From NCBI GenBank assembly GCA_025060015.1, contig JANXDB010000055.1:1-38663 (forward strand): a stretch of 38,663 nucleotides of DNA. The letters are read 5' to 3'. Below the pieces are notes generated by a model. It did no database searches and was not told the origin of the DNA. It saw nothing but the letters and a program-made list of their open reading frames with translations. Of this stretch, positions 1,029 to 18,519 are shown piece after piece; position 1 is the stretch's first letter, and every line of letters starts with the position of its first letter. The DNA is from Caldimicrobium sp. Lineage in GTDB: Bacteria; Desulfobacterota; Thermodesulfobacteria; Thermodesulfobacteriales; Thermodesulfobacteriaceae. The position numbers and the translations under genes are program-made.

Positions 1029-4000
1029 ATGAGAGAAGCTAAGGGTAGGGTTTTAGTAGTAGGTGGAGGAATAGCAGGGATTCAGAGTGCCTTAGATCTA
1101 TCTGAGCTTGGTTTTTATGTATATCTTGTGGAGAAGAGGGCAAGCATTGGTGGGGTGATGGCTCAGCTGGATAAGACCTTTCCCACCAATGACTGTAGCA
1201 TCTGAATCCTTGCCCCAAAGATGGTGGAGGCCGGGCGGTCTCCTAATATAGAAATTTTAACCTTAACTGAGGTTTTAGAGGTAGAGGGGGAGCCAGGAAA
1301 CTTCGAGGTAACCCTTAAGCTTAATCCTCGCTACATCGATGAGAGTAAGTGCACCGCCTGTGGTGATTGTATGAAATATTGTCCCAGGCTTGCTGTGGAT
1401 ACCTATAATGCCAATTTAGCTTTTACCAGATCAGCTCGTATCGATTTTCCACAGGCTGTGCCCACAAAATACTACATCGATCCAGAAACTTGCCTCAGGC
1501 TTAATCATCAAACCTGTCAGCTATGTGCCAATGTCTGTGGACCAAAGGCTATAGATTTCAGTCAGACACCTGAGATAAGAAAGGTTAGAGTGGGAGCTAT
1601 AGTTCTCTCTCCTGGTTTTGGAAAGGTGCCTGTGGAGGCCCTGCAAAAGTTTGGCTACGGAACATACAGAGATGTGCTGCACAGTATTGAGATGGAGAGG
1701 ATAACCTGTGTAGCAGGTCCCACCGAAGGAGAGGTTATAAGGCCTTCTGATTTTAAGCACCCCAAAAAGATAGCTTATATTCAGTGTGTGGGATCCCGTG
1801 ATTTAACCTGCGGACAGCCATACTGTTCCAGTGTTTGCTGTATGTATGCCATGAAGCAAGCCTCAGTTGTAAAGGAACATGAACCGTCCGCAGAGATTAC
1901 TCTGTTTTTTATGGATATCAGAACCCACGGAAAGGGTTTTGATGAAAGCTTTTGGAATGCTGTAGAGAAATACGGTTTTAAGGTAGTTAAAGCAAGGCCA
2001 GGAAAGATTGATAGAGTTGATGGCAGACTTGTTCTGAACTATGTGAATGAAGGTGGTAAAGTTTGTAGAGATTACTTTGACGCAGTGGTGCTTTCCATTG
2101 GGCTTGGTGCCCCTGAGGATGCAAAGAAGATTTCCGAGATCTTTGGTATTGAACTCAACGAGTTTAACTTTGCTAAAACTAGCTATTTAAAACCTTTGGA
2201 AACCACCAAACCAGGAATATATGTGATAGGTGCCTTTCAAGGACCTAAGGATATTCCCGAAAGCGTAATGCAGGCCTCAAGCGGAGCAGCCCTTGCCTCT
2301 GAGCTTCTTAGGGAGGGAAGGTGGACCTCTACGGTGGTAAAGGAGTATCCACCTGAGGATATAGAGCTTTTATCAGGAGAGCCAAGAATTGGCGTCTTTG
2401 TCTGTCACTGCGGGGTTAATATCGCGGGTGTGGTAGATGTAAAAGAGGTAAAGGAATATGCTAAGGCTCTTCCAAATGTGGTATTAGCAGAAAACATGGT
2501 CTATGCCTGTGCACAGGATTCATTGGAACAATTAAAGGAAAAGATAAAGAAGTATAGGCTAAACAGAATTGTAATGTCAGCTTGCACACCAAGAACCCAT
2601 GAACCTCTCTTTCAGGACACATTAAGAGAGGCTGGTTTAAATTTAGCCTTAATTGAGATGGCCAACATTAGGGATCAGTGTTCTTGGGTGCATCCAGATA
2701 ATCCCCAGAAGGCAACTGAAAAGGCTAAGGACTTGGTGAGGATGGCGGTGGCTAAGGCAAGAAGACTCAAGCCCTTAGAGTTGCAACGGGTATCTGTTAC
2801 GCCAAGGGCTTTGGTTATTGGTGGCGGGGTTGCGGGGATGACCTCTGCGCTTTCCATTGCAGATCAGGGCTTCCAGGTTTATTTAGTTGAGAAAGAAGAA
2901 ACTCTGGGAGGAAATCTTGCAAAAGTAAAGCTTACCATCTCTGGAGAGGACCCACAGGCTTTCCTTAAGGACTTAGTTCACAGGGTGATGAATCATCCCA
3001 ATGTTAAGGTATATACCAGAGCCAAGGTCGATAATGTCTCTGGTTACATCGGAAATTACACCACAACCTTAAGAATTGGCGATGGTTCAGAGATTGTTAA
3101 TCATGGTGTAGTGGTGGTGGCAACTGGTGGAAAAGAATATAGACCAAACAACTACCCTTTAGATGGTGAGAGGGTTATAACCCAGCTTGAACTTGAGGAG
3201 AGGCTTGCCAAGTCAAAGACTGGTAAGAAATTTTCGAAAAAAGTGATCATGATTCAGTGCGCAGGCTCAAGGGGAGAGGAGCTCTCATACTGCAGTAAGC
3301 TCTGTTGCACTCAGGCCTTAAAGAATGCCCTAAAGATAAAGGAGATAAGCCCTGAAACAGAAGTGTATATCCTTTACTTGGATATCAGAGCTTATGGTTT
3401 TTACGAAAAGTACTATTTGGAGGCAAGGAAGAGAGGAGTTAAGTTCATAAGATTTCCTCAGGAGAAGCGCCCAAGGGTTGATGTCAAGAATAAGAAGGTT
3501 ATGGTAAGGGTCTGGGACACTGTTCTCGATGAGGAGTTGGAGATAAGTGGAGATCTCTGTGTGCTATCTGTGGGTATGGTTCCTTCTGAAGAAAGAGAAA
3601 TCGTAAATATTTTGAAGCTTGCTCAAAATCAGGATGGTTTTCTCATGGAGGCCCATGTTAAGTTGAAACCAGTAGAGACGGCAACAGATGGGGTTTACAT
3701 TGCGGGTTTAGCTCACAGTCCTCAACCTTTAACAGAGGTATTAGCGCAAGCAAGGGCTGCTGCTGCAAAGGCAGCCATTCCTTTAGCTAAGGGTTTTGTA
3801 GAGGTGCCACCTATTGTGGCAGAGGTCAGCATGGAGAAATGTATTGGCTGTAGTATCTGTGCCGAGGTTTGTCCCTTCTCAGCTATAGAGATGGTTAAGC
3901 TTGAGAAGAGAAGGAAAGCACAGGTTATAAAGGCTGCTTGCAAGGGATGTGGGATCTGTGCTTCGCACTGTCCTGTTTTTGCCGTTGATGTGGGAGGTTT

Positions 4001-4091
4001 CACCAGTGATGCTATATTGGAACAGCTAAAGAGCTTCAGTAGAGAAGAAAGAGAAGAGTTAGTTGAAGAAAAGAAGGTCGAAATTTTGTAA
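1029..4091 (+). CDS. hdrA: Fused double-FAD HdrA-like electron-transfer subunit, selenoprotein (Sec59)
   Basis: Flavin/Fe-S subunit of the heterodisulfide reductase HdrA family, the electron-bifurcating or electron-distributing core of Hdr/Mvh complexes in the cytoplasm. The ATG at 1029 follows AAAGGAGG and gives 1020 residues only if the in-frame TGA at 1203-1205 is read as selenocysteine. Residues 12-17 are an FAD GGGIAG motif. Sec59 lies in DCSI-U-ILAPKM, where the family normally has Cys. Ferredoxin cysteines follow (C108, C111, C114, C118), then a second HdrA half with CHCG at about 459, a second FAD motif GGGVAG from about 598, and a C-terminal double ferredoxin from C938. The second FAD half lacks the CxxC/U motif. 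This is roughly twice the core of a small HdrA, a tandem-fused architecture. The neighbours (mvhD, HdrC-like, metV, metF) suggest it routes electrons to or from methylene-THF reductase. Family call is firm; partner specificity is inferred. Confidence 0.9.
1203..1243 (+). promoter_or_regulatory. Sec codon plus SECIS-like hairpin in hdrA
   Basis: TGA at 1203-1205 in frame with both halves of hdrA. A 7-bp stem (1226-1232 with 1237-1243, one G-U pair) closed by a GGGC tetraloop begins 20 nt after the TGA. This is within the distance normal for bacterial SECIS elements, which sit just downstream of UGA inside the coding sequence. The hairpin was found by eye; no energy calculation was done. Confidence 0.68.
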
Positions 4092-4098
4092 TATTTAG

Positions 4099-4965
4099 AT
4101 GGTAATGACTATGGAAGCTTTAACTTTTAAAAGTCCCGAAGAGATTGAAAGAGAGGCTCAAAAATATGTAATAAACACCTTTGCAGACCTTTTAAGAGCC
4201 CTTAGAGAGCATCCCGATTGGGTTGCTGAGCTAAGAAGGCTTTTCTTAACTACCGAATTTCTGGAAATTCCAAAGAAAATAGAAGAAATCTTAGAGATGC
4301 TAAAGAGCCTTGATAAGAGAGTATCTACTCTGGAAGAGGATGTAGCGGTATTGAAAGGGGATGTGGCGGTATTGAAAGAGGATGTGGCGGTATTGAAAGG
4401 GGATGTGGCGATATTGAAAGGGGATGTGGCGATATTGAAAGAGGATGTGGCGGTATTGAAAGAGGATGTGGCGATATTGAAAGAGGATGTGGCGATATTG
4501 AAAGAGGATGTGGCGATATTGAAAGAGGATGTAAATTATTTGAAAGGAGAGTTTGGAAGATTTAAGGGAAAAGAATATGAGAGGAAAGTGAAGGAAAAAT
4601 ATTATGCTATTTTAGGGCGCATATTAAAGGGTTCGAAGATATTACCCTTTGAGGAAATCTTGCCTATCTTAGAGCAGGCTGAAGAGGAGGGAAGTATTTC
4701 AGCGGAGGAGTTTGATGATGTTTTGAGGCTTGATTTGCTTATAGAGGGAAAAATTAAGGCTACTCTTAAACCCGTGATTTTGGGTATAGAGATTTCCTAT
4801 AGATTGTATGGAGAGGATTTGGAAAGATCCTTAAAAAGGGCATTAATTTTGGGTAAGATTTTGAAAAAAGAAGTTATTCCAACTGTAGTTGGAGCGGAGA
4901 TTCCTGAGGGCTTAAAAGAGAAGGCGGAGGAAGTGGGGGTTTTAGTAATTCACAGTGAGTGGTAA
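4099..4965 (+). CDS. Coiled-coil protein with heptad tandem repeat and a nuclease-like C-terminal domain (DUF3782-like)
   Basis: A 288-residue protein of unknown function lying between hdrA (7-base gap) and mvhD (24-base gap), in an otherwise purely metabolic operon. The N-terminal ~80 residues are helical and charged. About residues 80-149 are ten near-identical heptads of the form E/G-D-V-A-V/I-L-K, an ideal coiled coil encoded by a 21-bp DNA repeat. The C-terminal ~140 residues (KEYERKVKEKYYAILGRIL onward, with a DLLIEGKI segment and a long alpha/beta region) resemble the PD-(D/E)XK-like domain of DUF3782-type proteins seen in thermophiles. That assignment is from memory of the family and moderate only. 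No clear Shine-Dalgarno precedes the ATG; ATG at 4105 and 4111 are alternatives. A role in the pathway is not evident; it may be a hitch-hiking gene. Confidence 0.7.
   Translation: MVMTMEALTFKSPEEIEREAQKYVINTFADLLRALREHPDWVAELRRLFLTTEFLEIPKKIEEILEMLKSLDKRVSTLEEDVAVLKGDVAVLKEDVAVLKGDVAILKGDVAILKEDVAVLKEDVAILKEDVAILKEDVAILKEDVNYLKGEFGRFKGKEYERKVKEKYYAILGRILKGSKILPFEEILPILEQAEEEGSISAEEFDDVLRLDLLIEGKIKATLKPVILGIEISYRLYGEDLERSLKRALILGKILKKEVIPTVVGAEIPEGLKEKAEEVGVLVIHSEW
4336..4545 (+). repeat. Ten-copy 21-bp tandem repeat (heptad-coding)
   Basis: Ten head-to-tail 21-bp units of consensus RRGGATGTGGCGRTATTGAAA, the last one diverged (encoding EDVNYLK). The period of 21 bp equals one coiled-coil heptad, so each unit adds two helical turns. 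Units differ by only a few substitutions (GAG/GGG, GTA/ATA), which implies recent expansion and likely copy-number polymorphism between strains. Confidence 0.95.
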
Positions 4966-4989: not shown

Positions 4990-5700
4990 ATGGATTTTGA
5001 ACCAAGGATATTGAGTTTTATGTGTAACTGGTGATGTTATGCGGCAGCTGATGCGGCCGGTGTGGCTCGCCAGAATTATCCCCCTTACCATAGGGTTATA
5101 AGGGTAATGTGCTCTGGCAGGATTGATCCTCTTCATGTGATGGAGGCCTTTGCCAACGGGGCCGATGCCGTCCTGGTAGGAGGCTGAAAGCTTGGAGAGT
5201 GCAAGTACCTGGATGGTAACTTCCAGGCGATAGTAATGGCTGAAACCCTTTGGAACCTTTTGGACCTTATTGGTATAAACAGGGATAGGTTCAAACTTGA
5301 GTGGGTCTCTTCTGCTGAACCTAATAAACTCGTGGAGGATATGCGAAGCTTTATGCTTGGGATAAAAGAACTTGGTCCCTTAGGAGTGTCTGAGGGGCTC
5401 TCGAAAGAGGACCTTAAGCTATATTTAGAGGCAGCCTGTGGAGTATTTCAAAACATGCAGGTTCGGACAGCCTATGGAAATGTTGCTAAGGAGCTAAAAA
5501 AATTAAAAGACTTTTCCATGGATACCATAAAAAGAAAGGTGGAGGAAAAAGTATTACCTGTTTTAAAAAACAAGCTCTATGAATTGGAGATCAAGGCTTT
5601 GATTCAAGATGGGCCTAAGAGTGTGGATTTTCTGGTTCAGAAGACAAGAGCAAGTGCAGAGGAACTGAATCCCATACTTGCAAAGATAATTAAGAGTTAA
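4990..5700 (+). CDS. mvhD: MvhD-type [2Fe-2S] electron-transfer subunit, selenoprotein with two Sec residues (Sec15, Sec66)
   Basis: Delta subunit of the methyl-viologen-reducing hydrogenase family, a small Fe-S protein that passes electrons to HdrA. ATG 4990 is preceded by AGAGGAGG. Full-length reading gives 236 residues and needs two in-frame TGA codons, 5032-5034 and 5185-5187. Both fall on family cysteines: [14 protein letters not shown] (family usually CNWC) and VLVGG-U-KLGEC (family usually GGC-x-x-G-x-C). Other conserved cysteines present are C12, C41 and C71. The sequence between ([27 protein letters not shown]) is canonical MvhD, so this is not a decayed gene. Residues ~135-236 form an extra, helical, Lys/Glu-rich C-terminal extension beyond the usual ~140 residues. 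Position after hdrA supports an HdrA-MvhD pair. The longest plain ORF (5236-5700) would lose every cluster ligand. Confidence 0.92.
5032..5070 (+). promoter_or_regulatory. First Sec codon of mvhD with SECIS-like hairpin
   Basis: TGA 5032-5034. A hairpin starts 18 nt downstream: GCGGCC (5053-5058) pairs with GGC-T-CGC (5064-5070, bulged T at 5067) around a GGTGT loop. A G-rich apical loop and a bulged U in the 3' or 5' stem resemble known bacterial SECIS features. Found by eye only. Confidence 0.6.
5185..5227 (+). promoter_or_regulatory. Second Sec codon of mvhD with SECIS-like hairpin
   Basis: TGA 5185-5187. A 6-bp perfect stem CCTGGA (5208-5213) with TCCAGG (5222-5227) encloses an 8-nt loop containing GG, beginning 20 nt after the TGA. 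This is weaker than the other three because the loop is larger, but at the same distance. Confidence 0.55.
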
Positions 5701-5711
5701 GGAGGATTGCT

Positions 5712-6251
5712 TTGAGAGTGGATTTAGCAAGAGAAGAGACGGTTAAAGCCTTTGTTGGAACTCATGTCTTTACCTATGATCAGTGTTTTAGGTGCGGAGC
5801 TTGCTCTGGTATCTGTCCTGTCAAGAAAGTAACTGGAGTTTTTGATCCAAGGAAGATAGTTCATCTTCTTCTTTTAGGTTTTTTGGATAAGATCCCTAAG
5901 GAGGTGCTTTGGTATTGTTCTCAATGTGGAAGCTGTGTTCCTGTGTGTCCTATGGATGTTAAACCAAAGGAGGTTATTTATGCCCTACGGGAATACATGC
6001 TAAGAGAGGGGCTTGTGGATTATGATACACTTTTCGAGTGGGGAGCCTTTGCCAAGGTAGATCCTAAAAAATGCATAGTGTGTCTTACCTGTGTTAGAAC
6101 CTGTCCCTTTAAAGCAATATCTATCAGGGAAGCGCAGTTTGCCTACATTGACCCAAGGTCCTGTAGGGCCTGTGGGATCTGTGTGGTGGAGTGTCCGGCA
6201 AGGGCCATTGAGTTGAACTCAATTCCTGAGTCCCTGGAGGTAAGAGCCTAA
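5712..6251 (+). CDS. HdrC-like iron-sulfur protein with four [4Fe-4S] motifs
   Basis: A 179-residue soluble electron carrier. Two motifs near the N-terminus, CFRCGACSGICP and CSQCGSCVPVCP, match the pair in HdrC subunits. Two more at the C-terminus, CIVCLTCVRTCP and CRACGICVVECP, form a classical 2[4Fe-4S] ferredoxin. It therefore looks like HdrC fused to a ferredoxin. I take the TTG at 5712 as start because TAAGGAGGA ends 6-8 bases before it; no in-frame ATG lies near the N-terminus. It follows mvhD by 11 bases and its stop overlaps the next ATG by one base. It probably links HdrA to another redox partner. No HdrB (CCG-domain) subunit is encoded nearby, so the usual heterodisulfide site is absent. 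Confidence 0.85.
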   Translation: MRVDLAREETVKAFVGTHVFTYDQCFRCGACSGICPVKKVTGVFDPRKIVHLLLLGFLDKIPKEVLWYCSQCGSCVPVCPMDVKPKEVIYALREYMLREGLVDYDTLFEWGAFAKVDPKKCIVCLTCVRTCPFKAISIREAQFAYIDPRSCRACGICVVECPARAIELNSIPESLEVRA

Positions 6252-6646
6252 TGGAGAACTCCTTTAAAATAGCCATTCTTTGCTGTAATTATACCAATTT
6301 GGCGGAAAGAGAGGATTTAGCAGACATAGTTGCTAGGATAGAAGTAAAACGCTATCCTTGTTCTGGGAAAATTGAGATAACTGACATTTTGAGAGCCTTT
6401 CGTGAGGGGGCTAAGGGAGTAATGGTAGCTGGATGTGCCAGAGGGACTTGTCATAACTTAAGGGGTAGTGATAGGGCAGAGAGGAGGGTTGTGGGAGCAA
6501 GGGCTACTTTAAAGGAGCTTGAGATTGAGCCTGAAAGAGTAGAGATGTTTTTTGTGTCTAGGTTAGATGCTGGCGATTTTGCTGAAAAGGCAAAGGAGTT
6601 TTATAGACGGATTCTGAAATTAGAACTTAAGGAGAGAACTCAATGA
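6251..6646 (+). CDS. Second MvhD-family (hydrogenase delta subunit-like) protein
   Basis: 131 residues of the MvhD/FlxB-type domain: an ILCCNYTN opening, a YPCSGKIEITDIL segment, then GAKGVMVAGCARGTCHN, which correspond to the family's three cysteine-bearing blocks. It is divergent from the selenoprotein MvhD upstream and keeps cysteines rather than TGA codons. It likely binds a [2Fe-2S] cluster and acts as an electron-transfer adaptor. It overlaps the HdrC-like gene by 1 base and metV by 4 bases (ATGA), implying translational coupling, so it is probably a fixed subunit of the same complex. Its placement next to metV suggests it is the adaptor that contacts the methylene-THF reductase; that is inference. 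Confidence 0.8.
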   Translation: MENSFKIAILCCNYTNLAEREDLADIVARIEVKRYPCSGKIEITDILRAFREGAKGVMVAGCARGTCHNLRGSDRAERRVVGARATLKELEIEPERVEMFFVSRLDAGDFAEKAKEFYRRILKLELKERTQ

Positions 6647-7314
6647 TAATAGCAGAGAGAAGGCCACTTTCTGAGATACTCAAAAATATTGAAGCCTACG
6701 AGAGGATTATGGTTCTTGGTTGTAGGGGCTGTGTAGCCATCTGTTCTGCGGGTGGGGATAGGGAGGTGGCTATTTTAGCAGAGGCTTTGAGGTTAGGAAG
6801 GGAGAAGAAAGGGAAGCCTGTTCAGGTTTTAGAGGAGACCTTTATAAGACAGTGCGATCCAGAGTATCTTGAACCTCTTAAAGACATCAAGGATAAGGTA
6901 GAGGCGGTGGTAAGCCTTGCCTGCGGGGTGGGAGTGAATTTAATTGCCGATCTCTATCCAGATATAAGGGTCTACCCAGGTGTGGATACTACATTTTATG
7001 GAGCAAACCTCTCTCTTGGAGAGTGGGTAGAGAAGTGTAGGGGTTGTGGAGATTGCATAATTGACCTAACCGCTGGACTTTGTCCTATTGCCAGATGTGC
7101 CAAGAATCTGCTCAATGGACCATGTGGGGGATCTCAGAGGGGAAGGTGTGAGGTCAAGGCAGAGATGCCCTGTATCTGGCATGAGATCGTTGAGAGGTTA
7201 ACCAAGAGAGGGGAGTTGGAAAGGCTCCTTGAGATCTGGACTGCTAAGGACTGGAGACCTGCTGGCGGAGATGGATTAAGAACAAGATTTAGAGAAGATC
7301 TTTTGGATAGCTAA
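6643..7314 (+). CDS. metV: MetV, zinc/iron-sulfur subunit of methylene-THF reductase
   Basis: 223-residue protein of the methylene-tetrahydrofolate reductase C-terminal-domain family (MetV), the partner of MetF in acetogen-type MTHFR. Cysteine-rich segments visible are MVLGCRGCVAICSAGG near the N-terminus, VSLACGVG in the middle, and a dense block CRGCGDCI...GLCPIARCAKN...GPCGGSQRGRCEV...PC, typical of MetV and thought to bind Fe-S and Zn. The ATG overlaps the preceding stop by 4 bases. The metF part of the next gene starts 11 bases after its stop. In acetogens such as Moorella, metV and metF lie beside hdrABC-mvhD, the arrangement echoed here. Confidence 0.88.
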   Translation: MIIAERRPLSEILKNIEAYERIMVLGCRGCVAICSAGGDREVAILAEALRLGREKKGKPVQVLEETFIRQCDPEYLEPLKDIKDKVEAVVSLACGVGVNLIADLYPDIRVYPGVDTTFYGANLSLGEWVEKCRGCGDCIIDLTAGLCPIARCAKNLLNGPCGGSQRGRCEVKAEMPCIWHEIVERLTKRGELERLLEIWTAKDWRPAGGDGLRTRFREDLLDS

Positions 7315-7325
7315 GGAGGGCTACC

Positions 7326-9869
7326 TTGGAAGTTAAGAGCTATCTTCAACAGGGATTAGAAAATGGACGATTTATTGTAACAGCAGAGATTGGTCCGCCA
7401 AAAAGTGCCGATGGAGAGCTGATCAAGAAAAAGGCTCGGCTTCTTAAAGGATATGTAGATGCGGTAAATATCACCGATTGTCAAACAGCTATCGTTCGGC
7501 TATCAAGTCTTGCTTCAGCGGTTTTAGTTATGAGTGAGGGGCTTGAGCCGGTCTTACAGATGACCTGTAGGGACAGAAATAGAATTGGTATCCAGGCGGA
7601 TCTATTAGGGGCAAGTGCCTTAGGAATTAGAAATCTCCTTTGTCTTACAGGGGATCATCCAAAGTTTGGAAATCATCCACAGGCTAAGCCGGTATTTGAT
7701 CTGGATTCCATTCAACTTCTCAATTTGGTTAAGGGATTGAAGAGCGGAAGGTTTGATAATGGGGAGGCAATAAAAGGAGCACTTCCCTATTTCTTTGTGG
7801 GTGCTGCTGAAAATCCCTTTGCAGAACCCTATGATTTTAGACCTTACAGGCTTGCTAAGAAGATAAAGGCAGGAGCGCAGTTTATTCAGACCCAAATCAT
7901 ATACAACGTTGATAGATTCAGAAGCTTTATGGAGCGATGTCGTGAATTGGGACTATTGGACCAGGTCTATATCCTTGCTGGAATTACTCCACCCAAATCA
8001 TTGGCCATGGCAAAGTATATGAAAGACAATGTGCCTGGACTTGAGGTCCCAGATGAGATAATTAAGAGACTCTCCTCTGCAAAGGACAAAAAGGAGGAGG
8101 GAATACAAATTGCTGTGGACATAATTCAGCAGGTGAGAGAGATCCCTGGTGTGAAGGGTGTTCATATAATGGCTATTGAGTGGGAGGAAGCTGTCCCAGA
8201 GATAGTAAAGAGAGCAGGTCTTGATACTGCACCCAGCTCTTTTGAGGTAACTCCACCCTTTGTGGTAGAGAAGGTTGTTGAGAAGATTGTGGAAAAGCCT
8301 GTGGAGGTGGTGGTTGAAAAGGTGGTTGAAAAGATTGTGGAAAAACCGGTGGAAGTGATAGTGGAGAAATTCTTGGAAAAAGAAATTCCCTGGGAGGAAG
8401 AGATGGCGGGAGAAAGGATACCTCTTGGAACACTTATTGAGGTTCTATCAGACTTAAAGGCTAGTCTAAAGAATATAAAGTCTGGAATGGAATCCCTTGA
8501 AGAAGGGTTAGCGAAGTTGGAGGAGGAGTTTTTAGGAAGGAGAGAACATAGACCCGTTGTGAGGGAGGTGCCAAAGAAAAGAGAGGAGATAACACCTCCA
8601 AAAGAGCCTTCATTAAGGGAGGCTCCTACTGTTGAGGTTAAACCCTTTGAAGAGGAAAGAAGAGAGGTATCGGAGGAGGTAGTTTCTATCAAGGAAGAAA
8701 CACCGTTAGAAAGGCCTGAGGAGAAGAAACTTGAGGTAAAAGAGGAGATAAAGCCAGAAGTAAAGGAGGAGGCTAAACCGGAGTTAAAAGAGGAGGTCAA
8801 GGTAGAAGAGGTTTCTAAACCTCTGATCGAAGCTCCTAAGATTGAAGAGGTGTCAAGGCCAGTTTCGGAACTTTTGATAGCTGGGTTTAAAGGGGACTAC
8901 CGGCCACTTTCTGAGAGGGCTAAAAAGATTCCACAGGATCTTTATATTGATAAGGCCACAGGATTGATTAAAGAGGTGATTATTGGTAAGGGAGATAGGG
9001 CTCTTAAATGTGGTAACGCCTCAGCTATAAACTTTCATCACTTTGAAGGTGAAATAAGGAATGGCATAAAGATTGCTATGGAGATCCTTGATATAAAACC
9101 TGACGACTGGCCAGAAAGTCTATCTAAGTACTTTGTAGAGGTCTATCATGACCCAGCGCTTTGGGCTAAGAAATGCGTTGAGGTATATGGAGCTGAGGCT
9201 ATATGTCTTTATCTTGCAGGCACGGATCCTAATTCCCTTGACTTACCTGCAGATCACGCTAAAAAGGTTGCAGAAAAGGTTGCCTCTGCAGTGGATGTTC
9301 CCCTAATTATTTGGGGGTCTGGTAATGCAGAGAAGGATACTGAGGTTTTAAGGGAGGTAGCTGATGTAGTTGGTCCCAAGGGGGCACTCATAGGGCCTGT
9401 GGTTGAGGCTAATCATAGGACTTTATCAGCGGTTGCCATGGGATACAATATTCCTGTCATTGCGTCGAGTCCTATAGATGTTAACTTAGCAAAACAGTTA
9501 AACATACTGCTTGAAAATATGGGATTAGGCCTAGATAAGATCATCATGGATCCCTCAGTTGGAGCTTTAGGTTATGGTATTGAATACACCTATTCAGTTA
9601 TGGAAAGGATAAGACTTGCAGCTCTTTATGCTCAGGATGCCAAATTGCAGGTGCCTTTCATTTGTAGCATTGGTAAAGAGGTTTGGAAGACAAAGGAGGT
9701 CAGTCTTCCCAGTGATGACTATATGGGGGAGGCAGAGGCGAGGGGGATCCTTATGGAAGCCTTAACAGGAGTTTGTCTTGCCTTAGCAGGTGGTGATCTC
9801 CTTATCATGAGACATCCCAAGGCTGTCGAGCTTTGTAAATTGCTTTTTAATAGCCTAAGCATGAGTTAA
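7326..9869 (+). CDS. metF-acsD: Fusion of methylene-THF reductase (MetF) and corrinoid Fe-S protein small subunit (AcsD)
   Basis: An 847-residue uninterrupted reading frame. Residues 1-299 are a full-length MetF (FIVTAEIGPPKS, VNITDCQ, LCLTGDHPKFGNH, FIQTQIIYN), the enzyme reducing methylene-THF to methyl-THF. Residues ~300-508 are a Glu/Lys/Pro-rich linker with a 16-residue repeat (positions 8262-8357) and a short predicted helix. Residues ~508-847 are a full-length AcsD/CdhD TIM-barrel subunit (KCGNASAINFHHFEG, YHDPALWAKKC, PLIIWGSGNAEKD, MDPSVGALGYGIEYTYS). The TTG at 7326 is chosen because AAGGAGGG ends 5-6 bases upstream. acsB follows 15 bases later and acsC after that. Fusion would tether methyl-THF production to the methyl acceptor complex. 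Both domains look intact; the functional coupling is inference. Confidence 0.9.
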   Translation: MEVKSYLQQGLENGRFIVTAEIGPPKSADGELIKKKARLLKGYVDAVNITDCQTAIVRLSSLASAVLVMSEGLEPVLQMTCRDRNRIGIQADLLGASALGIRNLLCLTGDHPKFGNHPQAKPVFDLDSIQLLNLVKGLKSGRFDNGEAIKGALPYFFVGAAENPFAEPYDFRPYRLAKKIKAGAQFIQTQIIYNVDRFRSFMERCRELGLLDQVYILAGITPPKSLAMAKYMKDNVPGLEVPDEIIKRLSSAKDKKEEGIQIAVDIIQQVREIPGVKGVHIMAIEWEEAVPEIVKRAGLDTAPSSFEVTPPFVVEKVVEKIVEKPVEVVVEKVVEKIVEKPVEVIVEKFLEKEIPWEEEMAGERIPLGTLIEVLSDLKASLKNIKSGMESLEEGLAKLEEEFLGRREHRPVVREVPKKREEITPPKEPSLREAPTVEVKPFEEERREVSEEVVSIKEETPLERPEEKKLEVKEEIKPEVKEEAKPELKEEVKVEEVSKPLIEAPKIEEVSRPVSELLIAGFKGDYRPLSERAKKIPQDLYIDKATGLIKEVIIGKGDRALKCGNASAINFHHFEGEIRNGIKIAMEILDIKPDDWPESLSKYFVEVYHDPALWAKKCVEVYGAEAICLYLAGTDPNSLDLPADHAKKVAEKVASAVDVPLIIWGSGNAEKDTEVLREVADVVGPKGALIGPVVEANHRTLSAVAMGYNIPVIASSPIDVNLAKQLNILLENMGLGLDKIIMDPSVGALGYGIEYTYSVMERIRLAALYAQDAKLQVPFICSIGKEVWKTKEVSLPSDDYMGEAEARGILMEALTGVCLALAGGDLLIMRHPKAVELCKLLFNSLSMS
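8262..8357 (+). repeat. 48-bp direct duplication in the MetF-AcsD linker
   Basis: Two adjacent 48-bp copies (8262-8309, 8310-8357), each coding V-V-E-K-V-V-E-K-I-V-E-K-P-V-E-V, followed by a degenerate partial third copy. The copies differ mainly at third positions. Charged alternating repeats like this make extended or helical spacers. Confidence 0.9.
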
Positions 9870-9884: not shown

Positions 9885-12107
9885 ATGTCCAAGATAATTG
9901 CCAGTGCTGCTATAAGAGGAGCCCATAAGATAATTGAGAGAGCCTTTGAAAAGTATGAAGAGGCTGTAAAGAAATTTGGCAAAGAGGTGGAAATTGGTTT
10001 TCCTAATACCGCTTATTTTCTACCTATAATCTATGCCATGTTAGGTTACCCTGTTAAGAAGCTCGGGGATTGTAAAGAGGTATTAGAAGAGGCAAGGAGA
10101 CTTCTTCCTGAGCTTCCCAGTGAAAAACTATGGCTTCCCTATCTTGGACCAGCTCTTGATGCAGGTATGGCGACCTTCTTTGCAGAAGAAATTATAGAGG
10201 CTATTAGATACTTAGAAAATCCTAATTTTTATACTAAAACGGAAGAGCCCCTTGCGGATAATATTTGGCTTGGGGCTGCGGATGATGTTATTTTTAGAAA
10301 AAGAGGGGTAGAGTTTGTAGATGGAACTGCACCTGGCTTTGCAGCAATTCTTGGAGCACCTCCGAATAAAGAGACCGCTCAGAGAATTGCTCAGGAGCTT
10401 CTTGAAAAGAATCTCTATGTCTTTATGCATGATCAGACCAACGGAGTTTATATGCCCTATCTGTTAAAGGAGGCTGGGGTTCAACTTGGTTGGCCAACAA
10501 GACTTATACCCTTTGGGCCAGACTACACATCCGTCGTCTTTGCTATCGGTTTTGCCTGTAGGGTTGCCATGTCCTTTGGTGGTATCAAACCAGGAGATTA
10601 TCTTGGCAACCTTCTCTACAACAAGGATAGGACCTTTGCCTTTGTCATCACCTTTGGACCGGTCTCCGATGAGTGGTATGCAAACGGTGCAGGTGCTATA
10701 AACTGGGGCTTCCCAGTGATATCTGATTGGGATATACCTGAAATCAAACCCTTTGGCATTTGCACATACGAGCATGTAGTTTCTGAGGTTCCCCATGAAG
10801 AGATTGTCGATAAAGCTTTAGAAGTAAGGGGATTAAAGGTTACTGCCGTTAAGCTTGATATACCTGTAGCTTACGCACCTGCCTTTGAAGGGGAAAGGGT
10901 TAGAAAGGATGACCTATATCTAGAGTGTGGAGGAGGTAGAAGCCCAGCAGTGGAGCTACTTTTATCAGCACCACTAGAGGAAGTAGAGGATGGAAAGATC
11001 GAGGTTATTGGTCCAGAGATTTCTGATATACCCGGTCTCGGTATCAAGGGCCCACCTTACGTGTTGCCCTTTGCAGTGTTAGTCAAGGTGGCTGGAGTTA
11101 ACATGCAGGAGGATTTTGAGGCAATTTTGGAAAGGCAGTTTCATCACCTAGTAAACTATGCTCAGGGCATTATGCATGTGGGACAGAGAAATTTTATGTG
11201 GTTAAGATTCAGTAAACAGGCCATTGAAAAGGGTTTTCAGTTCTACCACATTGGAAGGATACTCTATGCCAAAATAAAACAGGAATATGGAGCAATTGTG
11301 GATAAATGTCAGGTGACCATATACACCTTGGAAGACAAGGTAAAGGAGATATTAGAGGTTGCTAAGAGTGTTTATGAGAGGAGGGATGCTCGTCTTGCTG
11401 GGCTTACCGATGAAGCGGTTGATGTTTTTTATTCTTGCACCTTATGTCAGAGTTTTGCTCCTAATCATGTATGTGTGATCACACCTGAAAGAGTGGGAGC
11501 CTGCGGAGCTTACAACTGGCTTGATGGCAAAGCCTGTTACTCCATCAATCCAGCAGGTCCTAATCAGCCTATACCCAAGGGTGAGGTTATAGATTCTGTT
11601 TTAGGACAATACACCGGTGTAAATGAGTATGTGAAACAGAACTCCCGTGGGGCAGTGGAAAGGGTCAGTCTTTATAGTATATTGATTGACCCCATGACAG
11701 TATGTGGATGTATGGAGGGCATTGCTGCTTTATTACCCTCAGTCAATGGTGTGATGATCGTGAATAGAGATTTTACTGGTATGACCCCCACTGGGATGAA
11801 ATTTTCAACCCTTGCAGGAATGGTTGGTGGTGGTCAAGTTACTCCCGGTTTCATGGGGGTTTCTAAACACTACATCACCTCTCCTAAGTTTTTATCAGCC
11901 GATGGAGGCTTGCTAAGGCTTGTATGGCTTCCCAAGATGCTAAAGGAGGAGCTTAGGGATAAATTAAAGAAGAGAGGAGAGGAATTAGGGGTGCCTGATT
12001 TAGTTGATAAGATTGCCGATGAGACCGTGGCTACTACAGAAGAGGAGGTTAAGGCTTGGCTTGAAAAGGTGGACCATCCTGTTTTAAAGCTTCCACCTTT
12101 AGTGTAA
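9885..12107 (+). CDS. acsB: Acetyl-CoA synthase (AcsB)
   Basis: 740-residue acetyl-CoA synthase, which condenses CO, the methyl group from the corrinoid protein and CoA at its Ni-Ni-[4Fe-4S] A-cluster. All six A-cluster cysteines are present: C518, C521, C530 and C540 in CTLCQSFAPNHVC...GAC, and C607/C609 in VCGCMEG. These are offset by exactly 12 from the Moorella thermoacetica residues 506, 509, 518, 528, 595 and 597, so the protein is collinear with the acetogen enzyme. It has the complete bacterial N-terminal CODH-binding region, unlike the shorter archaeal CdhC. The start ATG follows AAGGAGGGGG. It sits between acsD and acsC in one transcription unit. Confidence 0.97.
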   Translation: MSKIIASAAIRGAHKIIERAFEKYEEAVKKFGKEVEIGFPNTAYFLPIIYAMLGYPVKKLGDCKEVLEEARRLLPELPSEKLWLPYLGPALDAGMATFFAEEIIEAIRYLENPNFYTKTEEPLADNIWLGAADDVIFRKRGVEFVDGTAPGFAAILGAPPNKETAQRIAQELLEKNLYVFMHDQTNGVYMPYLLKEAGVQLGWPTRLIPFGPDYTSVVFAIGFACRVAMSFGGIKPGDYLGNLLYNKDRTFAFVITFGPVSDEWYANGAGAINWGFPVISDWDIPEIKPFGICTYEHVVSEVPHEEIVDKALEVRGLKVTAVKLDIPVAYAPAFEGERVRKDDLYLECGGGRSPAVELLLSAPLEEVEDGKIEVIGPEISDIPGLGIKGPPYVLPFAVLVKVAGVNMQEDFEAILERQFHHLVNYAQGIMHVGQRNFMWLRFSKQAIEKGFQFYHIGRILYAKIKQEYGAIVDKCQVTIYTLEDKVKEILEVAKSVYERRDARLAGLTDEAVDVFYSCTLCQSFAPNHVCVITPERVGACGAYNWLDGKACYSINPAGPNQPIPKGEVIDSVLGQYTGVNEYVKQNSRGAVERVSLYSILIDPMTVCGCMEGIAALLPSVNGVMIVNRDFTGMTPTGMKFSTLAGMVGGGQVTPGFMGVSKHYITSPKFLSADGGLLRLVWLPKMLKEELRDKLKKRGEELGVPDLVDKIADETVATTEEEVKAWLEKVDHPVLKLPPLV

Positions 12108-12130: not shown

Positions 12131-13501
12131 ATGGGTCTTACTGGGATTCAGATTTTAGGCAAGCTTCCGAAGAAAAACTGTAAGGAGTGCGGTCATCCAA
12201 CCTGTATGGCCTTTGCCATGAAAGTTGCAGCAGGGCAGGCTGAGATTACTGCTTGCCCCTATGTAGATCCTGCGGTGGTGGAGGAGATTGCCGAAGCAAC
12301 AGCTCCCCCAATAAGAACGGTAAAATTAGGTTCAGGAGATCAAATTTTTTCCCTTGGTGGAGAGGTCGTATTATTTCGGCACGAAAAACGTTTTGAGAAC
12401 CCTCCTCCCTTAGGCACTTATATATCAACCTCCATGGATGAGGGCGAGATCTCAAGGAGGATCGATCTTTACAAAAAATTACAATGGGACAGAGTGGGAA
12501 TAAAGCTTCAACCGGAGGTACTCTTTATAGCCGATGGCAAAGATAGATCTAAGTTTGAGAATATTGTCAAGAGGGTGAGAGAGGAGCTACCTCATGTGGC
12601 CCTTGTTTTAGAGGGAGACAAAGCCTCTTTGGAAAAGGCTTTGTCTATTTGTGGAGACTTTAAGCCACTTCTCTATGGTGCTACTGTTGATAACTTTGAG
12701 GACATGACTTCTCTTGCCCTTGAAACCAGGGCACCATTAACGATAATTGGGAGATCCCTTGATGAACTAGCAGAACTTGTAGATAAAGCCCTGCAGAAGG
12801 GATTAAAGGACTTAGTCCTTGACCCAGGCTCCCTGAGTGTTAAGGAACTCTTTGAGGACATGGTTATCATCAGAAGGGCTGCGATAAAAAAGAGATATAA
12901 ACCCTTTGGTTTCCCTATAATCACCTTTCCTTATCGTTACGCAAAGGATTATCTGTCAGAGAGCCTCTTGGCAGGCCTACTCGTTGCAAAGTATGCCAGC
13001 GTTATAATACTCTCAGATCTAAAGGGTGAAAGTCTATTCAATTTGTTAGTTGAGAGGATGAATATCTTTACTGATCCACAGAAACCTCTGGTGGTTGAGG
13101 AGGGAATATATCCTGTAAACGGGCCTGATGAGTATTCGCCTGTGGTGATTACCTGCAATTTTGCTCTAACCTATTTCATCGTTAACGGAGAAATAGAGTC
13201 AAGCAGAGTGCCTACCTGGCTACTTATCAAAAACACTGACGGGCTTTCGGTGTTAACAGCTTGGGCAGCAGGTAAATTTGGAGCAGATAGTATTGCGGAG
13301 TTTGTGAAGCGCTGTGGTATTGAACAAAAGGTGAAACATCGTAAGTTGGAAATCCCTGGCTATCTAGCAGGTATCAAGGGAGAGTTGGAAGAGGAGTTGC
13401 CTGACTGGGAAATCATCGTAGGCCCAAGGGAGGCAAGCGGACTGCCTGCTCTGTTAAAAAGAGTCTATGCCGAGTTACAGGAAATGAAAAAGGCATCTTA
13501 A
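12131..13501 (+). CDS. acsC: Corrinoid iron-sulfur protein large subunit (AcsC)
   Basis: 456-residue large (gamma) subunit of the corrinoid Fe-S protein, which with AcsD carries the methyl group on cobalamin from AcsE to AcsB. The N-terminal [4Fe-4S] motif is C17-x2-C20-x4-C25-x16-C42, typical for keeping cobalt in the Co(I) state. It is followed by a TIM barrel and a C-terminal cobalamin-binding domain ending near VGPREASGLPALLK. The ATG at 12131 is preceded by CGGAGGAAAG. Length matches the Moorella subunit. Its partner AcsD is unusually fused to MetF upstream. Confidence 0.95.
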   Translation: MGLTGIQILGKLPKKNCKECGHPTCMAFAMKVAAGQAEITACPYVDPAVVEEIAEATAPPIRTVKLGSGDQIFSLGGEVVLFRHEKRFENPPPLGTYISTSMDEGEISRRIDLYKKLQWDRVGIKLQPEVLFIADGKDRSKFENIVKRVREELPHVALVLEGDKASLEKALSICGDFKPLLYGATVDNFEDMTSLALETRAPLTIIGRSLDELAELVDKALQKGLKDLVLDPGSLSVKELFEDMVIIRRAAIKKRYKPFGFPIITFPYRYAKDYLSESLLAGLLVAKYASVIILSDLKGESLFNLLVERMNIFTDPQKPLVVEEGIYPVNGPDEYSPVVITCNFALTYFIVNGEIESSRVPTWLLIKNTDGLSVLTAWAAGKFGADSIAEFVKRCGIEQKVKHRKLEIPGYLAGIKGELEEELPDWEIIVGPREASGLPALLKRVYAELQEMKKAS

Positions 13502-13517: not shown

Positions 13518-14414
13518 ATGACCATAGAGGTTATCTGTATAGCTGAAAGTATAAACATCATGGGGAAGAGAACAGGTCAGGCTATGAAGGATAGAAATCC
13601 TCTTCCCATTCAACAGATGGCAAAGGAGGAGGCAGAATTAGGAGCAGATTATTTGGATCTCAACATAGGTCCTGCCAAGAAGGACGGCCCTGATTTGGCA
13701 AGCTGGATAGTTAAAGTAGTGGAAGAGGTTGTTGATACTCCCTTGTCCCTTGATACTACCAACCCTGAGGCCATGATCGCAGGAATTAGTGCTTCCAAAA
13801 AACCCTCTAAATGTCTAATAAACTCCATATCCATCCAGCCTGAGAGACTGGAAAAGCTTGGTCCTTTCGCAGCAGAGATGGGCTGTGATGTGGTAGCACT
13901 GCTTTGGGGTTTAGAAGGTTTACCAAGAGATGCTAACGAAAGAGCGGCTCTGGCTGTCGACCTTATAATGAAGCTCAATGAGTATGGAATACCAAATGAG
14001 AAAATCTGGGTAGATCCAATTCTCACTCCTATTACTTTGGGTGCAGATCAAATACAGGAAACCCTTATGTTTCTCTCCATGCTTCAAGACATAGCCCCTG
14101 GTGCTAAGAGCACCATTGGACTTTCCAATGTCTCTAATGGTGTTGCTCACCATCTAAGGCCCTATTTAAACAGGGCTATGCTTATGATGCTTATGAAATA
14201 CGGAATGTATAGTGCTATTGTGGATGTGTATGATAAGGAACTTGTAGAAATCGCCAAGGGTAAACATTCTGATTGGGTTAACATGGTGCATCGCATGATG
14301 GATGGTGAAGAGCCCGATGTGAAGAGTCTCTCTCCCAAGGAGTTAGAGATATACAAGACGGTAAAGGTATTAATGGGACAGACCATATTTTCTGAATCTT
14401 GGCTTGAATTGTAA
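13518..14414 (+). CDS. acsE: Methyl-THF:corrinoid Fe-S protein methyltransferase (AcsE)
   Basis: 298-residue pterin-binding TIM-barrel methyltransferase that moves the methyl group of methyl-tetrahydrofolate to cob(I)amide in AcsCD. Pterin-binding signatures seen are GADYLDLNIGPAKKDG, PLSLDTTNPEAMIAG, CLINSIS and TIGLSNVSNGV with the catalytic-site Asn. The sequence begins VICIAESINIMG, the usual N-terminal strand. ATAAGGAGGGTGAT precedes the ATG at optimal spacing. It is the fourth consecutive acs gene, 16 bases after acsC. Confidence 0.95.
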   Translation: MTIEVICIAESINIMGKRTGQAMKDRNPLPIQQMAKEEAELGADYLDLNIGPAKKDGPDLASWIVKVVEEVVDTPLSLDTTNPEAMIAGISASKKPSKCLINSISIQPERLEKLGPFAAEMGCDVVALLWGLEGLPRDANERAALAVDLIMKLNEYGIPNEKIWVDPILTPITLGADQIQETLMFLSMLQDIAPGAKSTIGLSNVSNGVAHHLRPYLNRAMLMMLMKYGMYSAIVDVYDKELVEIAKGKHSDWVNMVHRMMDGEEPDVKSLSPKELEIYKTVKVLMGQTIFSESWLEL

Positions 14415-14439: not shown

Positions 14440-17400
14440 ATGATAAGAGTTCGGATAAATGATAGGGAACTTAATGCAAACCCTGGAGATCTACTTTTAG
14501 AAATCGCTAGAAGGGAAGGTATTTACATACCAAGTCTCTGTTATCTGAAGAATGGAAGTGTGCCTGAAAAGCCCTGTGGTCTTTGTGTGGTTAAGGTTGC
14601 AGGTGAAGGTATTGTGCGCAGTTGTTCTTACAAAGTGGAGAGAGAGATTGAGGTCTCTACCGAGGATCCTGAGGTTAATGCTATAAGAAAGAAAATCCTT
14701 GAAGGTCTGGTTTCCAACCATTACGGTGATTGTAAGGCCCCCTGTCATACCCCCTGTCCTGGTGGTCTTAATATCCAAGGATACATTGGTTTTATTGCCA
14801 AGGGTGATTTTAAAGCTTCCCTTGCCCTTATCAAAGAAAGACTTCCCTTACCTGCTTCAGTGGGAAGGGTGTGCCCTAGGTTTTGTGAGCCTGTCTGTAG
14901 ACGCGCCTTAGTAGATGAGGCCGTGGCTATAAACAATCTCAAAAGGTTTGTTGCAGACTATTGTATGGAGAATGGTGAACTGCCTTTGGAGGTTCCTCCA
15001 CTAAATGGCAAAAAGGTTGCCATAGTTGGAGGAGGGCCTGCGGGCTTAAGTGCGGCCTATTTTCTAAGATTGGAGGGCTTTGAGGTAACTATATTTGATA
15101 GAGAAAAAGAGGCAGGAGGTCTTCTGAGGTACGGAATTCCTGCCTTTAAACTACCTAAGGACGTGGTGAAAAAAGAGGTAGAGGGAATATTAAACTTAGG
15201 TGTTGAGTTTCAAGGTGGAAAGATTTGGGGAAGGGATTTTTCTTTGAAGGATCTGAAAGAAGCTGGTTATGGGGCGGTATTGCTGGCAATTGGAGCAAGA
15301 AAGGAAAAACTTTATGGCTTTGAGGGCGAAGGCCTTGCTGAGAGTGCTTTGAAATTTCTCCTAGATTTTGGTAGAGGGGAAGTTGACAATAAGGCCTATA
15401 CCAAAAAGAGGATAGGCATTTTAGGTTGTAGTTATACTGCTATTGAATTAGCAAGGGTTTTGAGAAGGTTAGACTGCGAAGTAGAGGTAATTTATCCTCG
15501 CTCAAGGACAGAGGTCTCTGTTCCCTTAAGAGAGATAGGTTATGCGGAAAGGGAAGGGGTTAAGTTTACCTATGTTACAGCACCCTTAAAACTGATTAAG
15601 GGCGGAGGTTTTCATTTAACTCTTGCCAAAACTACTCTCTCTGAGAAAAGAGAGCTAAAGATTCTTCCTGAGACGGCCTTTGAAAGGGAGTATGATCTGG
15701 TTTTTAGAGCCTGGGGAGAGTTACCCAGTGATGAATTCAAGGCCTTTGGGGATATTGAAGCCAAGCTTGAGTTGAATCCCGATGGAACAATTAAGATAAA
15801 CAGCCAAACCATGCAAACTTCAGAACCATGGATATTTGCAGCAGGTGATTTTGTTCACGGTGCAAAAACCGTGATCCAAGCTGTAGCTTCTGGAAGAAGA
15901 GCGGCAAATATGATTGCTTCCTATCTCGAGAGTAAACCCTTTGAGAGGGCAGCTGTAACAGTTAAGTTTGACTTTTCCAGAGGGAAAAGAGCTGAGGAAT
16001 TTGACTCCAATTTCCTTGATCTCTTTGTCCCGAGTGAAAGGATGCATCTTAAAGAGAGAGAACCAGTGGAAAGGGTGAGAGATTTTGAAGAGGTCCTAAT
16101 AGGTTTCACAGAAGAGGAGGCATTTAAAGAGGCCAATAGATGTCTCAAGTGTGGTTGCTTAGGCATTCATAAGTGTGATTTTAGAGAGATTCTTATCAAA
16201 GAGGATGTTGGAGTTGCAAAATCTCGCAAAAAGATGAAATATGCCATTCAAAAGGACCATCCTCTTATCGAAGTAGATTCAAACAAATGTGTAGCTTGTT
16301 CAAAGTGTGTGAGGAGCTGTCCATATTCTGCAATTTTCTTTAGTGTAGTCAATAAGGGTACACCCCAAGAAGTAATAACCTTCAGATTTACCGAGGCCTG
16401 TGTTAACTGTGGCGCCTGTGTGGATGTTTGTCCCACAGGAGCACTTACGAAAAAGGAGCTTTTGATACCTTACAGCAGAAATCAGTCTAAACCTGTTAAA
16501 TCGGTGTGTACCTTCTGTGGAGTAGGTTGTAACCTTACCGTATGGGTAAAGAATGGAACCATTCTTGAGGTGACAGGTAGGGATTTACCGCCCAATAGAG
16601 GGTATACTTGTGTAAAGGGAAGATTTGGTTGGGAATTCTATAAAAGTAAAGATCGTTTAACACAGCCTTTATTGAGAAAGAGCATTAATGACGATTTCAG
16701 AGCGGTATCTTGGGAAGAGGCCTTAGATTATGTTGCGGAAAATCTTTTAAAGATCAGGGACAAATACGGACCTGAAGCCCTTGGATTTCTCTGTTCTGCA
16801 CGGACCAGTAATGAAGAAAACTTCCTTATGCAGAAGCTAGCCCGGACGATTTTTAAGACCAATAACGTTGATTGTCCAGCACGTGTCTGACACGCACCTT
16901 CGGTCGCAGGTCTTGCGGCCACAGTGGGAACCGGAGCTGCCTGTGTTCACTTTGAAGAGATCTTAAATGCCGAACTCCTTTTCCTAACGGGAACTAATTC
17001 CACCGATGCACACCCCATTGTTGCTCAGAAGATATCTAGAGCGTTGGATAGGGGTTGTAAACTCATTGTTGCAGATCCAAGAAGGATAGCCTTTGCTGAT
17101 AGGGCAAATGTCTATTTACCCTTGAGACCAGGAAGCAATGTGCCTCTCTTAAATGGCATAGCACATGTTATTGTGAGGGAGGGACTCTATAACAAAGAAT
17201 TCGTTGAGAATTATGTAGATAACTTTGAAGCCTATCAGCATTACATTTTAAGTGAATGGGATTTAGGAAGAGTAAGCCGATATACTGGAATAAAGCCCTA
17301 CTTAATTGAACAGGCAGCTATAATGTATGCCACCTCAAAAAGGGCTTTGATCCTATGGGGTTTAGGTCTCTCTGAGCATCGTTCTGGGTCCTATGGTGCA

Positions 17401-18519
17401 ATGGCAGCAGCCAATTTAGCAACGCTCTGTGGGTTCTGGGGAAAACCTGGATGTGGAGCTATGCCGCTTAGAGGACAGAACAATGTTCAGGGTGCCTGTG
17501 ATATGGGAGGTCTACCCTATGTGCTTCCAGGATATCAAAGTTACAAGGATGACGGCGTGAGGATGAGGTTTAAGGAGGTTTGGAAAGAGGATCTACCTGT
17601 AGTAGATGGTAAGACATTGCCCACTATGTTGAGAGATGCCCTTGCTGGAAAATTTAAAGCTCTCTATGCCATGGGTTATGACGTGGCCATGAGCCACGGT
17701 AATCTAGGAGAGGTTTGGAGAGCCCTTTCTAATCTTGAATTTCTGGTAGTGCAGGACATTTTCATGCCACTCAGTGGAAAGTATGCCCATGTTGTTTTAC
17801 CTTCCGCCTGTGTTTACGAAAAGTCTGGCACTTACACAAATGGAGAGAGAAGGGTTCAATTTTTTGAAAAGGCAGTGAATCCTCCAGGAGATGCCAAGCC
17901 CGATTGGTTAATTATAACAGAGCTTGCAAGAAAGCTTGGATTTTCCTGGAATTATACCTCCTCTTCAGAGGTCGCCCTTGAGATAGGTAAGGTATGGCAG
18001 GGGTGGGGTGGAATCAATCATTCGAGACTGAAGGAGAGGGGTATCCAGTGGCCCTGTTTGGATGAAGATCATCCTGGCACTAGTATCCTCTTTACCACAG
18101 GTTTTCCCAAAGGAAAAGTTCACTTAGCCCTAGCTAAACATGTGCCACCATTAGAAGAGCCTAACGAAGCCTTTACTTTTACCTTGGTAACTGTGAGAAA
18201 TCTTGAGCATTACAACATAGGCAGCATGACCCGTAGGTCCTCTTCTCTTTTAAACCTCTATCCTGAGCCTTTAGTTGATATAAACCCCGACGATGCCGAA
18301 AGGCTTGGAATTTTAGAGGGAGCAAAGGTAAGAGTATGGAACAACCGTGGTGAGGTTTTTTATAGGGCTAGGTTAGATAAGAGAGTTCCAAAGGGTTTGG
18401 TATTTACAGATTTTCACTTTGTGGATGCTCTGACGAATCTCTTGGTAAGCCCGGGACTTGATGAATTGATGGAGACTCCAGAGTACAAGGTATCGGTTGT
18501 AAATATAGAGCCGGTTTAG
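14440..18519 (+). CDS. fdhA: Multidomain selenocysteine formate dehydrogenase fused to NuoG-type and GltD/NfnB-like modules (Sec817)
   Basis: One 1359-residue gene if the TGA at 16888-16890 is Sec; otherwise it splits in two. Order: [2Fe-2S] domain (C34, C46, C49, C62, NuoG spacing); GltD-type Fe-S N-domain from CHTPCPGG; FAD domain with GGGPAG at 197-202; second nucleotide domain near 325-350 whose glycine motif is degenerate (ILGCSYTA); ferredoxin pair CVACSKCVRSCP and CVNCGACVDVCP; then the molybdo/tungstopterin catalytic part with [4Fe-4S] ligands C690, C693, C697, C724, and CPARV-U-HAPSVAGL. The last matches the active-site context of Sec formate dehydrogenases. It interconverts formate and CO2 for the methyl branch. 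The flavin module may allow NAD(P)H or bifurcating electron input, although the altered glycine motif argues caution. It lies last in the operon, 25 bases after acsE. Confidence 0.93.
16888..16920 (+). promoter_or_regulatory. Sec codon and SECIS element of fdhA
   Basis: TGA 16888-16890 followed after 11 nt by a 7-bp stem, GGTCGCA (16902-16908) with TGCGGCC (16914-16920), capped by GGTCT. The GGUC apical loop and the loop distance closely resemble the well-characterised SECIS of Escherichia coli fdhF. This is the most convincing of the four SECIS candidates here. Confidence 0.82.

Follow-up and report, generated by a model that had tools for sequence, protein, structure and literature searches.

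A MetF-AcsD fusion gene with a predicted internal start for free AcsD in Caldimicrobium and its relatives

The fusion gene and its neighbourhood

The window, by which we mean the whole stretch of 38,663 nucleotides analyzed here (contig JANXDB010000055.1 of Caldimicrobium sp.), carries a run of Wood-Ljungdahl genes on its forward strand. The run begins with the C-terminal part of the CO dehydrogenase CooS/AcsA, cut by the contig end (63-1007; PF03063), and continues with HdrA (1221-4091; NCBIfam HdrA2), a small open reading frame, a FlpD-like frame of 154 amino acids that has a partial PF02662 match and is shorter than in most relatives (5236-5700), an HdrC-like 4Fe-4S protein found by profile search (5712-6251), MvhD/FlpD (6251-6646; PF02662) and MetV, the partner of MetF (6643-7314; PF12225, E 5e-35). 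The MetF-AcsD fusion follows, and after it AcsB (9885-12107; NF040764), AcsC, the large subunit of the corrinoid protein CFeSP (12131-13501; NF003195, 552 bits), AcsE (MeTr), the methyltransferase that acts between methyl-THF and CFeSP (13518-14414; Pterin_bind PF00809, with NF005719 as the best match but below its curated cut-off), and the formate dehydrogenase FdhA (14440-18519). Comparison of loci found this order largely retained across the genus and the order. MetF is encoded beside its acetogen-type partner MetV, and the AcsD domain shares an operon with its partner AcsC. Among the subunits of a MetFV-HdrABC-MvhD complex, HdrA, HdrC, MvhD and MetV are present in the cluster, and no HdrB is annotated within it. 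The FdhA frame passes through a TGA (16888-16890) in the context CPARV-TGA-HAP. A hairpin (-14.9 kcal/mol) lies just after it, a tRNA-Sec (84 bits) is encoded in the genome, and the TGA is likely a selenocysteine codon. A 288-aa frame with coiled-coil repeats adjoins HdrA (4099-4965) and was seen, among the compared loci, only in the window and in L035.

The fusion gene itself (7326-9869, forward strand) is a single open frame of 847 amino acids, with a TTG start and AAGGAGG upstream, in which MetF precedes AcsD. As the preliminary description had it, MetF is complete and in frame with AcsD: the MetF (methylenetetrahydrofolate reductase) domain occupies aa 1-300 (7326-8225), and the Pfam model MTHFR PF02219 matches aa 7-298 over profile positions 2-287 of 287 (E 2.4e-46). 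The AcsD domain, the small subunit of CFeSP, is likewise full-length. With the stop codon it covers 8955-9869 (aa 544-845, by PRK04452), Pfam CdhD PF03599 matches aa 550-795 (E 2.3e-39), and the NCBIfam AcsD models span aa 542-845, with a score above the NF003376 cut-off and below those of some subfamilies. Against the Moorella small subunit 4djd_D the domain gives an E value of 6.9e-78 at 46% identity. Homology to AcsD thus begins near aa 542 and not at 508, as was first proposed, and the linker, first put at some 200 residues, extends over aa 301-541. The frame is the only AcsD that a search of the genome retrieved. One other MTHFR-like protein is encoded there, a chain of 532 aa that includes a MetV-like DUF5981 C-terminal part (L071, 4110-5708; G000 contig 14).

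The linker has three parts. A first segment rich in V, E, K and P (aa 301-359; 8226-8402) has low pLDDT and contains the 16-residue repeat noticed at the outset, present as a 48-bp tandem repeat of 2.0 copies (8262-8357). It is followed by a conserved helical module (8403-8561) and by a second, E/K/P-rich segment (8562-8954) that is disordered here and TPR-like in other lineages. An AlphaFold2 (AF2) model of the fusion gave two folded domains and a helix at aa 367-403 within the module, the rest of the linker being disordered. The two folds match the CFeSP small subunit 4djd and the Thermus thermophilus MTHFR (8eac/1v93), while the relative placement of the domains is not fixed by the model (linker pLDDT about 30, pTM 0.48).

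A putative internal start at the helical module

In four Thermodesulfobacterium-like genomes (L047-L050), metF and acsD are separate genes. Their acsD starts with its own ATG directly at the helical module, which has remained on AcsD, and is preceded by GGAGG or AGGAG in three of the four; the first linker segment, which the fused relatives maintain as an uninterrupted frame, is gone. At the same place in the window and its fused relatives lies an in-frame ATG (8403-8405; Met360 in the window), which opens the helical module and is the predicted start of a free AcsD of 488 aa, with GGAGG five bases upstream (8393-8397). The duplex energy with the anti-Shine-Dalgarno sequence is -10.2 at this site compared with -9.0 to -12.7 at the true starts of the operon. 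In the window's group, where alignment gaps scattered the internal methionine over several columns and the position was anchored by hand, 9 of 10 sequences retain GGAGG, even though codon -4 encodes W, L or V and codon -2 encodes E, V, G or T. The background is GGAGG at 23 of 342 comparable sites in the same genes. Against the site speaks that motifs resembling a Shine-Dalgarno sequence are common in GAG-rich coding sequence. A further genome, G003, also has the internal GGAGG-ATG.

Codon-level comparison of the Desulfobulbales pointed in the same direction. Their linkers carry the motif AGE(H/D)xMNEKER, whose glycine codon is GGA in all 25 fused genes, the sole invariant among 131 conserved fourfold sites, and this in genes where GGA makes up 3-31% of glycine codons. 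Among 174 columns, only this codon and the one just before it, that is, the two Shine-Dalgarno codons, are purine-only. We then searched 243 genomes with a pattern that left the third base of the glycine codon free, using the reversed pattern as a control. This retrieved 130 matches in 125 genomes, every one with GGA, and none for the reversed pattern, while a control motif within AcsD in the same genome set had GGA at 1 of 42 glycine codons. Because the 243 genomes again contain some of the 25 genes, the pattern test is largely but not wholly independent of them, and the counts are not independent of one another because the genomes are related. A Shine-Dalgarno sequence, a start codon in frame with the downstream domain and constraint at the nucleotide level, the features by which sequence comparison recognizes genes with internal initiation, are all found here, and a conserved ribosome-binding site with its ATG suggests that the gene also yields AcsD in free form.

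The internal start is not universal. No convincing one was found in the fusions of the Thermodesulfatator type (f3), of Thermosulfurimonas or of short-linker Thermodesulfobacterium, and in a third lineage only 3 of 13 sequences have a start at the module. A universal internal start is excluded by f3, Thermosulfurimonas and the short-linker lineages, and on these comparisons two products are not a general property of fused genes. Lineages without the start seem to have AcsD in fused form alone, an argument that the protein functions when fused. The same lineages favour the simplest alternative, in which the full-length fusion alone is made and the internal Shine-Dalgarno-ATG is a by-product of Glu-rich coding, as do the frequent GAGGAG sequences of the linker. 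We nevertheless regard this explanation as improbable. Against it stand a rare codon fixed at 130 of 130 sites, compared with 1 of 42 in the control, one invariant fourfold site in 131, and a GGAGG that outlasts changes in the amino acids it encodes and sits at the true acsD start of the split relatives.

The linkers differ widely in length and kind between lineages (V/E/K/P repeats, TPRs, coiled coil), yet all are in frame; TPR or TPR-like repeats occur, for example, in the MetF-AcsD linkers of L055 (7674-10310) and L081 (7998-11150). Preservation of the frame across linkers unrelated in sequence argues that the full-length read-through product is under selection. An hhalign comparison of the helical module between the two main lineages gave a probability of 48%, which only hints at homology. 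A long disordered linker is easy to cut, and the clade with separate genes does well with separate proteins; the fusion might accordingly be made and then cleaved into MetF and AcsD as a mere device for equal synthesis. We consider this quite unlikely, since no conserved cleavage motif was seen, the helical module is kept between linkers that are otherwise unrelated, and with cleavage a separate start for AcsD would serve no purpose. The constraint on GGA within a short segment could also reflect a regulatory element in the RNA, such as the site of a GGA-binding translational regulator, and not a start. The exact spacing of the Shine-Dalgarno sequence to a conserved in-frame ATG, the purine constraint on the preceding codon and the fact that acsD begins at this place in the split relatives make such an element very unlikely. 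We therefore favour, as the likely reading of these sequences, a gene that encodes a bifunctional MetF-linker-AcsD protein of the Wood-Ljungdahl pathway and, by internal initiation in the same frame, free AcsD.

Distribution and history of the fusion

AcsD was found in 257 of 395 genomes from the phylum. The best matches, about 45, lie in frames of 722-1174 aa from at least 15 families, two split genomes excepted, while the frames of weaker matches are mostly 313-546 aa long, with three exceptions that are AcsD-CooS fusions. Fused homologues of 722-895 aa are present in the window's own genus, family and order, and the fusion also occurs in one-contig assemblies (G001, G010, G011, G013, G030 and G032) and in isolate genomes. 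Other carriers include Desulfurivibrio sp. AMeS2, Desulfocapsa and many Desulfobulbaceae, with the order CooS, MetF-AcsD, AcsB, AcsC, FdhA; in the Desulfobulbales loci MetV, Hdr and AcsE are absent next to the fusion. MetF is separate in the matches from Chloroflexi, Planctomycetes and Actinobacteria. In the Desulfobacterales L086 and L090, metF and acsD are separate but adjacent and in the same order as in the window, plausibly the pre-fusion state.

The AcsD tree unites all fused and split rows in a single clade (SH-aLRT 100, branch 0.39), and in the AcsB tree a branch with support of 100 separates them from the other rows; the four split genes form a clade of their own (100). The MetF tree places the window within a set of 12 rows, 8 fused and 4 split (97), but is distorted by the very distant row L177, so that the clade test is weaker there. 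Of the apparently unfused rows inside the fused clade, L062, L092, L113 and L138 reflect a contig end or a break in the frame, and the others are the four true splits. Because the AcsD and AcsB trees group all fused copies in one clade, these sequences are best fitted by a single fusion event, with one later fission in L047-L050. Repeated independent fusions are unsupported by the single fused clade of the two trees, and an ancestral split state within the clade is less parsimonious.

The preliminary description had asked whether close relatives have two genes and whether the junction is a mis-join. Such relatives do exist, yet theirs is a derived fission within the fused clade. Separate genes in four relatives might suggest an assembly or sequencing error that joined two genes, but the fusion recurs in isolate genomes, in assemblies of a single contig and across at least 15 families, which rules such an error out for practical purposes.

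In the stretches read of L047-L050, the HdrA, HdrC and MvhD genes are absent upstream of MetV. A Thermodesulfobacterium-like genome that is 99% complete (L068, G026) has MetV-MetF, and our searches found no AcsD match in it.

Proposed function and relation to known systems

We propose that full-length MetF would join MetV and the electron-transfer subunits HdrA, HdrC and MvhD, while the long flexible linker tethers it to AcsD, which with AcsC would form CFeSP. New methyl-THF would be released near its acceptor, although methyl transfer would still need AcsE. Ribosomes starting at the internal GGAGG-ATG (8393-8405) would make free AcsD with the helical module at its N terminus, and this would let CFeSP exceed MetF in number and shuttle to AcsB. 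Once the upstream linker was lost, the internal start would have become the start of a normal gene. We lean towards an ancient gene encoding both a tether and free AcsD, in which the internal site sets the ratio of tethered to free protein and the later fission followed a second start that already existed. The sequences themselves show the fusion, its conservation, its clade and the internal site with its constraint; use of that site, the stoichiometry, the complex and channelling are what we infer from these comparisons, and channelling of the methyl group by the tether is plausible. A strict tether, as envisaged earlier, is not supported, since the internal ribosome-binding site and ATG suggest that AcsD is also made free. 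The multi-enzyme methyl-transfer complex then suggested does fit further, independent fusions in relatives. In Thermodesulfobacterium-like genomes AcsC and AcsE share a frame (L046, 14111-16564; L048, 4628-6958; L050, 3458-5863), with L046 also carrying the MetF-AcsD fusion. Other families have AcsD joined to the CO dehydrogenase CooS (L177, 5315-8686; L178, 2922-6374; L179, 3676-7002). In L178 an internal ATG with a Shine-Dalgarno sequence (-12.0) stands before a helical-looking segment ahead of CooS, a parallel to the window. An unfused AcsD with a long Ala/Lys/Glu-rich C-terminal tail lies just before CooS in L066 (9089-10711) and L067 (8148-9770); such tails are common to many families and resemble a half-made AcsD-CooS fusion.

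The architecture is not new, although the preliminary description knew of no account of it. The 2016 genome paper of Desulfurivibrio alkaliphilus AHT2 lists an 'mthfr/acsD ... fusion' with the same two domains in one gene of a Wood-Ljungdahl cluster; the definition of the cluster goes back to delta proteobacterium MLMS-1 (Pierce et al. 2008), and the fusion is there mentioned in passing, without analysis, distribution, internal start or function (PMC5016858). In the related Desulfurivibrio sp. AMeS2 (L098), MetF and AcsD are 64% and 57% identical to those of the window; the Desulfurivibrio fusion gene adjoins CooS and lacks the MetV, Hdr and AcsE genes that lie near the window's. The adjacent MetF, MetV, HdrA, HdrC and MvhD homologues resemble the MetFV-HdrABC-MvhD reductase of Moorella thermoacetica (PMC8515935), in which, however, MetF is not fused to AcsD, and whose HdrB was not found next to the window's genes. 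The AcsD domain shares its fold with the CFeSP small subunits of Moorella (4djd, 46% identity) and Carboxydothermus (2h9a, 40%), but known AcsD proteins, of 309-323 aa, are free and have neither the linker nor the helical module at their N terminus. Archaeal Cas11b is a known second product of the kind proposed here, translated from an in-frame start within a longer frame (PMC11899642); in the window such a product is predicted from sequence, and, unlike in Cas11b-type genes, the longer product adds a second enzyme.

In the literature searched, mostly without subscription papers, so that earlier descriptions are possible, we found no second product of the MetF-AcsD fusion and no report of an internal in-frame start in Wood-Ljungdahl enzymes. 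The internal start inside the linker thus appears to be new. The fusion goes unmentioned in a 2026 study of Desulfobacterota pathways (PMC12827605) and in a paper on Thermosulfurimonas (PMC4911364). It may explain papers that name the gene just methylenetetrahydrofolate reductase, or report acsABC without acsD: TDIS_1006 of T. dismutans, reported as methylenetetrahydrofolate reductase only (PMC4911364), is by gene order probably a MetF-AcsD fusion, and a Ca. Desulfobulbus paper gives acsABC, two metF and no metV (PMC7117923).

The Wood-Ljungdahl pathway is among the oldest routes of CO2 fixation, and the carriers of the fusion are a large group of sulfur-metabolising, CO2-fixing bacteria. The conserved internal start predicts a second protein that annotation has missed in well over a hundred of their genomes, and the clade-wide link between MetF and AcsD, together with the AcsC-AcsE and AcsD-CooS fusions, offers natural constructs with which the hand-over of methyl groups inside a complex may be tested.
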